From assembly GCA_008501735.1 (NCBI GenBank), contig QQUF01000028.1, positions 62,001-126,000 of the forward strand: DNA of 64,000 nt, read 5' to 3'. Below the pieces are notes generated by a model. The model ran no database searches, was not told the DNA's origin, and saw nothing but the letters and a program-made list of their open reading frames with translations. How positions within the stretch are numbered: the first letter of the stretch is position 1; each line of letters opens with the position of its first letter. Source of the DNA: Calditrichota bacterium (GTDB taxonomy: Bacteria; CLD3). A program made the position numbers and the translations under genes. Below, one piece after another: positions 48,195-51,802 of this stretch.

Positions 48195-48524
48195 TTAAAA
48201 ATCAAAAGCCATTTTGGCTCTTTTTTGTAATTCAATGCAATCAGTTGAGCTCAATTTTCCTACTTTGTAACGAACCATTGCAGGACTAAGAGAAGCAATT
48301 TTTATTCTTACCCAAGAAGATTTAATTAGATTAGCACTTTCCCACTCTTTGATTTCATAATCAAAAATTGTAGAATGCGGAACAGAAGTTATCATTGCTA
48401 CAATAACACTTTCAGTAATTTTTTGATAAACTTTTGTGCTAAGAACAACAGTTGGTCTAGTTTTGGAGGAAGTTAAATCTGTGAAGGGAAAAGGAATCAA
48501 AACAATGTCTCCTTGCTCAAACAT
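48195..48524 (-). CDS. MazF/PemK-family endoribonuclease toxin
   Basis: About 109 residues from the ATG at 48524 (MFEQGDIVLIPFPFTD). GDIVLIPFPFTDLTSSKTRPTVVLS is the MazF/PemK core, followed by SSWVRIKIASL with a later basic region. These toxins cut mRNA. The antitoxin gene overlaps its start by eight bases, so the order is antitoxin then toxin. Another frame-compatible Met lies 20 codons upstream but lies inside the antitoxin gene. Confidence 0.85.
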   Translation of the reverse strand: MFEQGDIVLIPFPFTDLTSSKTRPTVVLSTKVYQKITESVIVAMITSVPHSTIFDYEIKEWESANLIKSSWVRIKIASLSPAMVRYKVGKLSSTDCIELQKRAKMAFDF

Positions 48525-48714
48525 TGTAGATTTCTCGCCAATTGTCGTATTCGGAATCTTCTTCATTTTCCCAATCTTCTTCAAAAGAACTTGAAGCTAC
48601 TTTAAACCACTCTAAATCCTGTTCTGAAATTGAAGATTTGTTTTTTAATCTTTCAACAATCTTTTTGAGCATTTCAATTTCTTTTGGTTCTAAACCTGTT
48701 ACGTCAATGTTCAA
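48517..48714 (-). CDS. Probable antitoxin of the MazF-type toxin
   Basis: A 65-residue acidic protein. Residues 1-35 are helical (LEPKEIEMLKKIVERLKNK), then SSSFEEDWENEEDSEYDNW is strongly acidic and aromatic, as in antitoxin tails that block MazF-like sites. The stop overlaps the toxin ATG by eight bases. The family name is not certain; the call rests on size, charge and position. Confidence 0.7.
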   Translation of the reverse strand: MNIDVTGLEPKEIEMLKKIVERLKNKSSISEQDLEWFKVASSSFEEDWENEEDSEYDNWREIYNV

Positions 48715-48791
48715 TGTTTTGCCTTTAAAATTAAATTGTCTCAGAAAATTTAATTTAAGTAAGAAATTTACGCAAGTTGTTCTTAAAATAA

Positions 48792-48828
48792 AAAATGCTC
48801 CAAAACTTTAAAGAACTTGGAGCATTTT
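48792..48828 (-). terminator. Terminator of the sigma-ankyrin/F1-beta-like operon
   Basis: AAAATGCTCCAA (48792-48803) pairs exactly with TTGGAGCATTTT (48817-48828), and the minus strand continues as TTTATTTTAAG. It lies 25 bases past the stop of the F1-beta-like gene. Confidence 0.75.
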
Positions 48829-48852
48829 CTATTTTAGTATTGTTAGAGTATT

Positions 48853-49809
48853 CTAGGCAGTTTCTGTAATACTTTCGAGGTTTCCTTTGTAAAGAAATTC
48901 TTTTGGATCTAAGCCTTGAAAACCATTTTCTAAAAGTTCTTGTAAATCTTTAAGACCTTCTTCTTTTTTTACAAAAACTCCGGGTTTTCCTGTGTAAAGT
49001 TGTGCAACAAAGAAAAACTGTGTCAAGAAATTTTGGATTCTTTGAGCTTGAGTTTCACTTTCTGCAAAATCTGGAAAATTTCCATTTACAAAAAGTTTTT
49101 GAACTTTTGCAGTTACTTCTTTTTGTGCCTCACTCAAAACTTTTGATTTTGAAGCAATTACATCAACTGCTGGATAAATTCCTTTCTTCGCCAACTTTCC
49201 ATTCAGAATTATTTCAGAATCAAAGTTTAAATTTTCGCTGTTTTTGTGTTCAGGAAAACAACTTACCAAAGTCAGAACTTGCCCGTTTTGCAAATTCGGG
49301 AAAAATTTGATTTCTCCGTCCAAAACTCTGTCGTCAATTACTAACAGAACTTTTTCATTTTTTGCCAATTCTTCCGCAAGTGAAATTGTGTTATTTAAGG
49401 CTTCACTAAAAATTTCCTGTGAATCGTTTGCCTTTGTTAGAACCGAAACAATTTCACCTGCAAGGTTGCATTCTTTGAATTCTAAGAGAATGTCTTGCCA
49501 CTCACGACTTCTTTCTTCGACTGCAAGCCAAATGACTTTTCCTCCAACTGTTTTGAGGAAATTTCTGATTAACTCCATTTCCAAGACCAACTTTCCACAC
49601 CAAGAAGGTCCGGAAATTTTTGAAATTCCACCAAAAGTTAGAGGGGTAAAAACATCAATTGATTTAATTCCCGATTCAAAAGTTGTCTTCTCTGAATTTG
49701 AATTAGTAGAAAAATCATAGTTTTTCTTTTCAATTTCGATTCTGTCGCTTGAATCAATTCCATTTAATTTATAATCAAAAATTTTACCAAAGATTTCTTG
49801 AGTGTTCAT
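48853..49809 (-). CDS. Diverged, shortened F1-ATPase beta-like protein
   Basis: A 318-residue protein aligning by eye to the nucleotide-binding and C-terminal parts of AtpD. Matches include FESGIKSIDVFTPL (family: ETGIKVIDLLAPY), VIWLAVEERSREWQD (GVGERTREGND, catalytic Glu at residue 99), VLLVIDD (Walker B, 154-160), KKGIYPAVDVIASKSKVL (204-225) and IQNFLTQFFFVAQLYTGKPG (258-277). The P-loop is altered to GPSWCGKL (67-74): GK is kept but the following Thr is Leu. The N-terminal beta-barrel is absent, replaced by about 40 unrelated residues. It is too short for an ATP synthase subunit, and no atp genes are near. It sits behind the sigma-ankyrin gene and is probably co-expressed with it. Function unknown. 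Confidence 0.72.
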   Translation of the reverse strand: MNTQEIFGKIFDYKLNGIDSSDRIEIEKKNYDFSTNSNSEKTTFESGIKSIDVFTPLTFGGISKISGPSWCGKLVLEMELIRNFLKTVGGKVIWLAVEERSREWQDILLEFKECNLAGEIVSVLTKANDSQEIFSEALNNTISLAEELAKNEKVLLVIDDRVLDGEIKFFPNLQNGQVLTLVSCFPEHKNSENLNFDSEIILNGKLAKKGIYPAVDVIASKSKVLSEAQKEVTAKVQKLFVNGNFPDFAESETQAQRIQNFLTQFFFVAQLYTGKPGVFVKKEEGLKDLQELLENGFQGLDPKEFLYKGNLESITETA

Positions 49810-50130
49810 TTTATTTACCTTCCAAAGTTTTTACAGTTTTTGCATTTTCATTAATTTTTGCCCAATCCAAAGCAGTAAGTCCATTTGAATCTTTTAGTTT
49901 GATTTCTGCTCCACTTTGGACAAGCAAATCCACCATTCCGATTGATAAATTTGATTTGTAGTCAAAAATTTGACCAAACATTTCTTGAGTTTGCATTTTA
50001 TTTACCTTCCAAAGTTTTTACGATTTCTGTGTTTTCATTAATTTTTGCCCAATCCAAAGCGGTAAATCCGTTTGAATCTTTTAGTTCGGTTTTTGCTCCA
50101 TTTTGGATTAACAAATTCACCATTCCAATG
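49765..50130 (-). repeat. Tandem duplication of a gene junction, period 187 bp
   Basis: Bases about 49765-49940 align with 49952-50127. Each copy holds the 3' end of an ankyrin gene (...TALDWAKINEN..VKTLEGK), the junction TAAAATG, and the 5' end of the F1-beta-like gene (TQE.FG.IFDYK). Copies differ at scattered positions, mostly silent or conservative. Confidence 0.8.
49811..49996 (-). CDS. 61-codon ankyrin mini-gene created by junction duplication
   Basis: The product begins MQTQEMFGQIFDYKSN, matching the F1-beta-like N-terminus. It continues as one ankyrin unit (SIGMVDLLVQSGAEI...TALDWAKINENAKTVKTLEGK), matching the sigma-ankyrin C-terminus. Its start and stop use the same TAA-A-ATG junctions as its neighbours. 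No stop has entered the frame despite substitutions, so it may still be translated as a lone ankyrin cap. It could equally be a neutral by-product. Confidence 0.55.
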   Translation of the reverse strand: MQTQEMFGQIFDYKSNLSIGMVDLLVQSGAEIKLKDSNGLTALDWAKINENAKTVKTLEGK

Positions 50131-51188
50131 GAATTGTTTGTTGCTGCCCAATGCAAAGGAGTTCTACCGAATTTGTCTTTTGTGTTGCAATCAATTCCGC
50201 ATTCCAAAAGTGCTTTCAAAATTTCCTCATTCCTTTGTGCGACTGCAAAATGAATTGCTGAAGCGTGAGATTTTTTGTCTTCCGAAGAAGCACCGTTTTT
50301 AATTAAAATTTTTGCGACTTCTGTAAAGTTGTATGAAATCGCAGTAAAAAGTGGAGTTTTCCCGCTCCAATCGGAAACATTGATTTCAGTTTTTTGCTCA
50401 ATTAAAAATTTTACAATTTCGACATTTCCACAAAAAGCTGCCCAATGTAAAGCTGTCCAACCGTCTTGGTTGCTCGTTACATTTTCGTTTGTGCTTGCGT
50501 CGTAAGAAGTTTGCCCGAAGTGAATTCTTGTCGAGTAACGTGTTCCTTCTTTGCTTTCTTGGTAGTTGAGCAAGTTTGCATTCTTTGCAACAATCTCTTT
50601 TATTTTTGGCAGATTTTCGTTTCTGATTGCATAAAAAAGTTCAAATGATTTTGCAAAGTAATTTTCCTGTTTTTGAGGCATTTGGTTAAATCTTTCTTTT
50701 ATTTTATTTCTTGAGAGTTGCAGCCTTTTCTTGACTGTTGTTAGCGGTAAGTCGAACTTTGCCGCAATTTCCTTTTGCGAGTAACCCGATAAATAAAATA
50801 ATTTTGCGATTTCGATTTCTTTTGGAGGTAAGTTGTCCAACTCTTCGACAATTTCTTCAAACTGCTCATTTTTTTCAGAGTAACGAAAATTTTTGAGTGA
50901 ATCCAAAGTTGTGTGTTGGACTTTGTTTTTACGATTAAACCTTTCGCATTTACCGATTATGATTTTTTTGAGCCAACTCGAAAAAGCTTTTGGTTCTTTC
51001 AGATTTTGCAATTTCAACCACGCTTCAATAAATGCTTCTTGCGTAACGTCTTTTGCAAAATTTTTATCCCTAACTTTTTCGTAACTTATAAAATAAGAAC
51101 TTTGGCTAAATCTAACCACAATCTTAGAAAATGACTTTGCATCACCTTCTTTAGATTTATTTATCAGAATTTCTAAATTTTCAATCAT
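49998..51188 (-). CDS. ECF sigma factor fused to ankyrin repeats
   Basis: A 396-residue transcription factor. Sigma region 2 (about 15-85) includes KDVTQEAFIEAWLKL. Region 4 (about 118-165) includes LPPKEIEIAKLFYLSGYSQKEIA and LPLTTVKKRLQ. From about 180 on there are ankyrin repeats: DGWTALHWAAFCGNVEIVKFLIEQ, GKTPLFTAISYNFTEVAKILIKNG, and FGRTPLHWAATNNSIGMVNLL. Ankyrin repeats bind proteins, so the tail may act as an in-built partner or anti-sigma docking site. No separate anti-sigma gene is visible; the F1-beta-like protein downstream is the candidate partner. Target promoters unknown. Confidence 0.9.
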   Translation of the reverse strand: MIENLEILINKSKEGDAKSFSKIVVRFSQSSYFISYEKVRDKNFAKDVTQEAFIEAWLKLQNLKEPKAFSSWLKKIIIGKCERFNRKNKVQHTTLDSLKNFRYSEKNEQFEEIVEELDNLPPKEIEIAKLFYLSGYSQKEIAAKFDLPLTTVKKRLQLSRNKIKERFNQMPQKQENYFAKSFELFYAIRNENLPKIKEIVAKNANLLNYQESKEGTRYSTRIHFGQTSYDASTNENVTSNQDGWTALHWAAFCGNVEIVKFLIEQKTEINVSDWSGKTPLFTAISYNFTEVAKILIKNGASSEDKKSHASAIHFAVAQRNEEILKALLECGIDCNTKDKFGRTPLHWAATNNSIGMVNLLIQNGAKTELKDSNGFTALDWAKINENTEIVKTLEGK

Positions 51189-51323
51189 TTCTGAGGAGTT
51201 TCTTAAGTTTTTATTTTAGAGTGCCAATTGAAATGCAAAAGGTGAATTAATTTTTCAAAAAAGTTTTATCTTGTGCAAAAAATTACAACGAAGTATATTT
51301 TTTATTTCAAGAAATTTGACCAA

Positions 51324-51536
51324 ATGAATACTGAAAACGATAAAAAAATCTGCCCAATTTGCGAACAAGAAAACAGTTGCAGTTTACTTCAAGGTAAATC
51401 AAAATGCTGGTGCTTCAACCGAGAATTTCCACCTGAACTTTTGGAACTCGTCAGCGAAAAAGAACTTTCTTGCATTTGTGAAAACTGTCTTGAAAAATTC
51501 ACAGAATTAAAAGTCCCTCTTGGAAGAGGGATTTAG
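51324..51536 (+). CDS. Cys-rich CWC-type protein
   Basis: About 70 residues from the ATG at 51324 (MNTENDKKICPICEQ); a GTG 17 codons upstream opens the same frame. CPICEQENSC, KCWCFNREFPPELLELV and CICENCLEKF match the cysteine-rich CWC family, probably zinc-binding; its function is not known. The last residues (PLGRGI) come from an intergenic palindrome, TCCCTCTT/AAGAGGGA at 51514-51531. Confidence 0.75.
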   Translation: MNTENDKKICPICEQENSCSLLQGKSKCWCFNREFPPELLELVSEKELSCICENCLEKFTELKVPLGRGI

Positions 51537-51589
51537 GGAGATGTTAAAAACATTCCGAGTAACTGCAACTTCAAAATTAGGAAAAAATA

Positions 51590-51802
51590 ATGGAATGTAT
51601 TTTTTGCAAAGGAACAATGGAAAAAGGTTTTGCACCTTTCCAAATTGATAGAAAAAATTACCACTTTACTTTAGAAAAAGTTCCTGCTTGGGTTTGCACA
51701 CAATGTGGAGAAAAGTATTTTGAAGAAAATGAAGTTAAAAAAATCCAAGAATTGTTAGAAAAGATTGACTCTGAAACAAACGACTTTTCAAAAGTCGCAT
51801 AA
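51590..51802 (+). CDS. YgiT-type zinc-finger protein
   Basis: A 70-residue protein with two Cys pairs: CIFCKGTMEKG and VCTQCGEKYFEENEV. This is the MqsA-like N-terminal zinc finger without the HTH half. Such proteins are usually antitoxins beside a small toxin, but no toxin is adjacent. AGGAAAAAATA precedes the ATG. Confidence 0.75.
   Translation: MECIFCKGTMEKGFAPFQIDRKNYHFTLEKVPAWVCTQCGEKYFEENEVKKIQELLEKIDSETNDFSKVA

Follow-up and report, generated by a model that had tools for sequence, protein, structure and literature searches.

Within the 64,000-nucleotide window (the whole stretch of DNA analysed), three ORFs follow one another on the minus strand and run up to a shared terminator-like hairpin (Table 1), as the preliminary description had claimed. 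In order of transcription they encode an ECF sigma factor with a C-terminal ankyrin stack, a 61-aa polypeptide, and a 318-aa protein related to AtpD, the F1-beta subunit. Both ORF junctions take the form TAA-A-ATG, reading GGAAGGTAAATAAAATG, and an SD-like GGAAGG lies upstream of the one-base junction. The coding signal in the named frames amounts to 0.34, 0.59, and 0.47 bits/codon, with the other frames at about -0.2 to 0.25, and is similar to that of a neighbouring gene. The 21-bp hairpin lies just 3' of the last gene's stop codon and has a fold energy of -24 kcal/mol (z -7.4 vs shuffled sequence); a simple terminator scan missed it because its loop is longer than the scan allows. A sigma-70 promoter scan gave uninformative output.

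Table 1. Features of the operon and their positions in the window
Feature	Coordinates	Strand	Evidence
ECF sigma with C-terminal ankyrin stack, 396 aa	49998..51188	minus	Pfam/NCBIfam matches, coding signal
61-aa ORF, by-product of duplication (by sequence comparison)	49811..49996	minus	repeat family D1, base-by-base comparison, dN/dS
318-aa AtpD (F1-beta) derivative without barrel	48853..49809	minus	TIGR01039, PDB F1-beta chains, AtpD alignment
187-bp tandem duplication across gene junction, with GGAAGGTAAATAAAATG	49762..50135	minus	repeat search, base-by-base comparison, shuffles
Hairpin with U-rich 3' side, probable operon terminator	48784..48836	minus	inverted repeat I2, fold energy

On the plus strand, two small genes (51273-51802) diverge from the sigma gene. 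The product of the first, 87 aa long, matches Cys_rich_CWC (1.5e-12); the second encodes a CxxC protein of 70 aa that is weakly MqsA-antitoxin-like. The Cys_rich_CWC gene and the operon could have a common intergenic control region (51189-51272). Directly downstream of the operon terminator, at 48195-48714 on the minus strand, are two overlapping ORFs: first one of 65 aa that is antitoxin-like in appearance, then a PemK/MazF-like toxin gene (129 aa, 5e-14). The neighbours tested against PADLOC gave no defence match.

A tandem duplication at the gene junction

The middle ORF had been taken for a separate gene encoding a lone ankyrin unit, a claim that fails when the locus is compared with itself. 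A direct-repeat search aligned 49762-49945 with 49949-50132 at 86% identity over 184 nt and a spacing of exactly 187 (family D1), vs a best self-match of 46% in shuffled sequence; the two copies lie at about 49762-49948 and 49949-50135. The duplicated stretch takes in the last part of the sigma-ankyrin gene as well as the beginning of the 318-codon gene. Followed base by base, the identity begins within the penultimate ankyrin unit encoded by the sigma gene (...SIGMV...), continues through TTGGAAGGTAAATAAAATG, and stops after approximately the first 16 codons of the gene downstream (...FDYK.N). In the 61-aa ORF, the head, MQTQEMFGQIFDYKSN, corresponds to that of the 318-aa protein, MNTQEIFGKIFDYKLN, and the rest (SIGMVDLL...LEGK) matches the ankyrin tail of the sigma factor (SIGMVNLL...LEGK), corresponding to its last 1.5 ankyrin units. 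In AtpD the barrel is followed by an LGRIFNVLGxPID segment, with which the duplicated head aligns, and the head therefore belonged originally to the 318-aa protein.

One tandem duplication hence accounts for both the identical junctions and the chimaeric 61-aa ORF, which, judged by its sequence, is the scar of a junction duplication and a chimaera of both its neighbours. The repeated junction is indeed present, but it is not an independent feature of a three-gene arrangement, arising instead from this one event. Between the copies, which are short, dN is about 0.12 and dS about 0.31, and by this divergence the duplication is old. The ancestral operon is one of two genes, and the present anatomy is almost certainly that of two genes and a duplication scar; the two genes are probably translationally coupled.

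The ankyrin-tailed sigma factor and its counterparts in other genomes

The 396-aa protein matches Sigma70_r2 (4e-8), Sigma70_r4_2 (8e-10), and Ank_2 (9e-38) in Pfam, and TIGR02937 in NCBIfam (68 bits vs a cut-off of 42.9). Sigma regions 2 and 4, both above the Pfam gathering scores, are present without region 3, the arrangement of an ECF sigma factor, and these matches bear out the domain calls originally made for this gene. The sigma part occupies about residues 1-175 and the ankyrin stack residues ~180-396, with approximately six units counted by eye and a Pfam ankyrin match reaching residue ~393; the protein thus has the structure of a sigma factor with a C-terminal extension, the extra domain after sigma4 being ankyrin repeats. 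ECF sigma factors that lack an anti-sigma often bear an N- or C-terminal extension as regulator instead, and control by a partner protein has been proposed for the TPR-tailed ECF42 and the WD40-tailed ECF57 groups, in a review of non-canonical ECFs that does not mention ankyrin (PMC8999054). As in these groups, the operon has a sigma2-sigma4 core with a protein-binding repeat domain behind it and no recognisable anti-sigma next door; unlike in ECF42, where a YCII-related protein is found nearby, the extension is ankyrin and the neighbour an AtpD derivative. The first gene is best read as encoding an ECF sigma factor with a regulatory extension, of the ECF42/ECF57-like kind, in which the ankyrin tail would be the protein-binding regulatory part. 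A defence reading by way of PADLOC ankyrin models was rejected as weak and confined to the ankyrin part. The same holds for MzaA of the MZA defence system, which is annotated as a sigma factor and has an ankyrin match: its equivalog model scores 57 bits vs a cut-off of 800, with the best stretch in the ankyrin part, and it is weak in PADLOC as well.

ECF-ankyrin fusions were found at ten loci elsewhere: two in genome G383, one in G119, and seven in another phylum, in which 7 of 68 genomes carry one. Like the 396-aa protein, these fusions (L038-L041 and L093-L098) join an ECF sigma to a following ankyrin part in one polypeptide, with about 23-28% identity to it over most of its length; they differ in being longer (about 530-775 aa) and in having more repeats. 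The sequence retrieved for the ten loci contains no AtpD-like stretch by tblastn at E values up to 0.1, so ECF-ankyrin proteins are in general independent of an AtpD-like protein, and the suggestion of a fixed pairing between the two is left unsupported. A search of open-access texts found no paper on ECF-ankyrin fusions.

At five of the seven loci in the other phylum, an S-adenosylhomocysteine (SAH) hydrolase gene lies downstream on the same strand (L041, L093, L094, L097, and L098), the gap being 72 to about 540 bp in four of them and about 2.8 kb in L093; a functional link between the ECF-ankyrin protein and SAH hydrolase is possible. In L038 (4039-7289), the ECF-ankyrin gene (748 aa) has directly behind it a second gene that encodes ankyrin alone (324 aa). 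The host genome itself encodes an ECF sigma fused to a SAM-dependent methyltransferase domain (L010:793-1968, contig C57, minus strand; Sigma70_r2 7e-12, Methyltransf_11 9e-20).

The F1-beta derivative and its proposed relation to the sigma factor

The 318-aa protein matches ATP-synt_ab in Pfam (2e-17), TIGR01039 atpD as its best match in NCBIfam (2.9e-32), and F1-beta chains in the PDB, and its alignment with AtpD begins just past the barrel and extends to the C-terminus, in agreement with its earlier identification as F1-beta-like and barrel-less. It shares 26% identity with the AtpD of the host genome and 27-31% with other AtpD proteins. The TIGR01039 score of 112 bits falls short of the equivalog cut-off of 463 that marks a full-length AtpD, and the protein likewise scores far below the equivalog/exception cut-offs of the MSC_0618 and MMOB1670 families. 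It resembles all three families in having homologous nucleotide-binding and C-terminal domains; it differs from AtpD and the F1-like beta paralogues in its lack of a barrel, its internal deletions, a Leu in Walker A, and the absence of an adjoining alpha gene. Missing relative to AtpD are the N-terminal barrel, the segment FRFTQAGSEVSALLGR, most of ATEMGALQERITST after Walker B (the FRFTQAG...ERITST segment is mostly absent), stretches around DPAPATTF, and roughly ten residues ahead of DELSEED. In F1, the crown formed by the barrel and the segments after Walker B serve contacts within the complex.

Around the nucleotide site, Walker A reads GPSWCGKL, with Leu replacing the Thr of AtpD (GxxxxGK[ST]), and Walker B (LLVIDD) keeps its Asp. 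The P-loop Lys, the ER pair, GIYPAVD including its Tyr, and the C-terminal adenine-pocket Phe are also kept; the Asn after Walker B has become Asp, and a nearby Arg is lost. These residues presumably play the roles known generally from F1 structures. On this pattern, hydrolysis of ATP by the protein is unlikely and binding of nucleotide possible, and the protein is very probably a non-catalytic AtpD derivative.

Conservation is uneven along the alignment: 63 of the 163 aligned AtpD-invariant columns are kept (39%), 87 of 105 always-hydrophobic columns are still hydrophobic (83%), and 22 of 149 never-hydrophobic columns are hydrophobic (15%). When the 318 codons were shuffled 20,000 times, no shuffle was stop-free. 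Such an intact frame together with the kept core indicates selection for a protein during most of its history. In a tree with AtpD sequences, the 318-aa protein sits on a branch of length 10, an extreme value that makes its placement meaningless and leaves the donor lineage unplaced. AlphaFold2, given an alignment of only three AtpD rows from viral contigs, returned a model with a pLDDT of 35.6, too low to be of use.

The host assembly totals 4.14 Mb in 59 contigs, is reported as 100% complete, and contains an intact atpD-atpC pair apart from the operon and an atpB...atpFHAG cluster elsewhere. The 318-aa gene stands outside these clusters and is not the only beta copy in the genome, where a search for further copies of it found none. 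No orthologue was found in the eight other genomes of the phylum searched (nine including its own). Nor was one found in about 385 genomes sampled from the whole domain in overlapping sets, two of which had no positive control, in 85,000 species by peptide patterns that reach close relatives only, or in phages and plasmids (tblastn) and viral contigs; some of these collections may omit very near relatives of the host genome. The matches listed were AtpD-type or other rotary ATPases, all ordinary. DNA comparison with a genome of the same family (G001) gave no match inside the operon and so demonstrated no empty site. Taken together, the 318-aa protein is best read as a putative lineage-restricted pseudo-ATPase derived from F1-beta.

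For the operon overall, the explanation that we consider reasonably probable is a two-gene unit of ECF sigma-ankyrin and diverged, barrel-less F1-beta derivative, with the 61-aa ORF as a leftover. Depending on what is bound to it, the ankyrin tail would switch the conformation of the sigma factor, a mechanism that has been put forward for ECF42 with its TPR tail, and the co-translated AtpD-derived protein would be a candidate binder that perhaps reports the adenine-nucleotide state by binding without hydrolysis. That the 318-aa protein functionally partners or binds this sigma factor is a tentative and speculative proposal drawn from gene position in the one genome in which the pair is seen. 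The more specific idea of a domesticated F1-beta acting as a nucleotide-binding, non-hydrolysing controller of an ankyrin-tailed sigma factor, linking energy state to promoter choice, is doubtful.

Alternatively, the 318-aa gene could be a passenger. An old copy of atpD, now trimmed, would have come to lie behind the sigma gene and be co-transcribed with it, with an unrelated function or in slow decay. We regard this as a substantial possibility, if one short of even. The lack of an orthologue in the phylum or elsewhere searched, the extreme divergence (26-31% identity, branch length 10), and the ability of ECF-ankyrin proteins elsewhere to manage without an AtpD-like protein are all consistent with such an origin; against it stand the intact 318-codon frame, its normal codon usage, a hydrophobic-core pattern kept despite the divergence, and the one-base junction to the sigma gene.

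The 318-aa protein could instead work with the ATP synthase of the cell, for example by binding its subunits and modulating assembly or activity, with the sigma factor responding to energy state. Its ancestry in AtpD, and not in the FliI, Rho, or V-type families, would fit this reading, which is nevertheless very improbable given that the barrel crown and post-Walker B segments are the parts lost and that the gene is not close to the atp clusters. Equally remote is a three-component system with the 318-aa protein as anti-sigma and the single ankyrin unit as a separate working part: gene order and tight junctions do recall sigma/anti-sigma operons, but the middle ORF arose by duplication, an on-board extension frequently stands in for an anti-sigma (PMC8999054), and the 318-aa protein matches no anti-sigma family in Pfam or NCBIfam, so that the anti-sigma role once suggested for it finds no support.

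The locus illustrates that a tandem duplication spanning a gene junction can imitate an extra operon gene. Ankyrin-tailed ECF sigma factors recur in other bacteria, with SAH hydrolase a frequent neighbour in one phylum, and even without a sigma partnership, the operon documents a strongly trimmed AtpD pseudoenzyme, as it appears to be, with a still-open frame. If the proposed partnership were true, a sigma factor would be under the control of a recycled ATP-synthase subunit, which would be an unusual way of coupling transcription to energy state.
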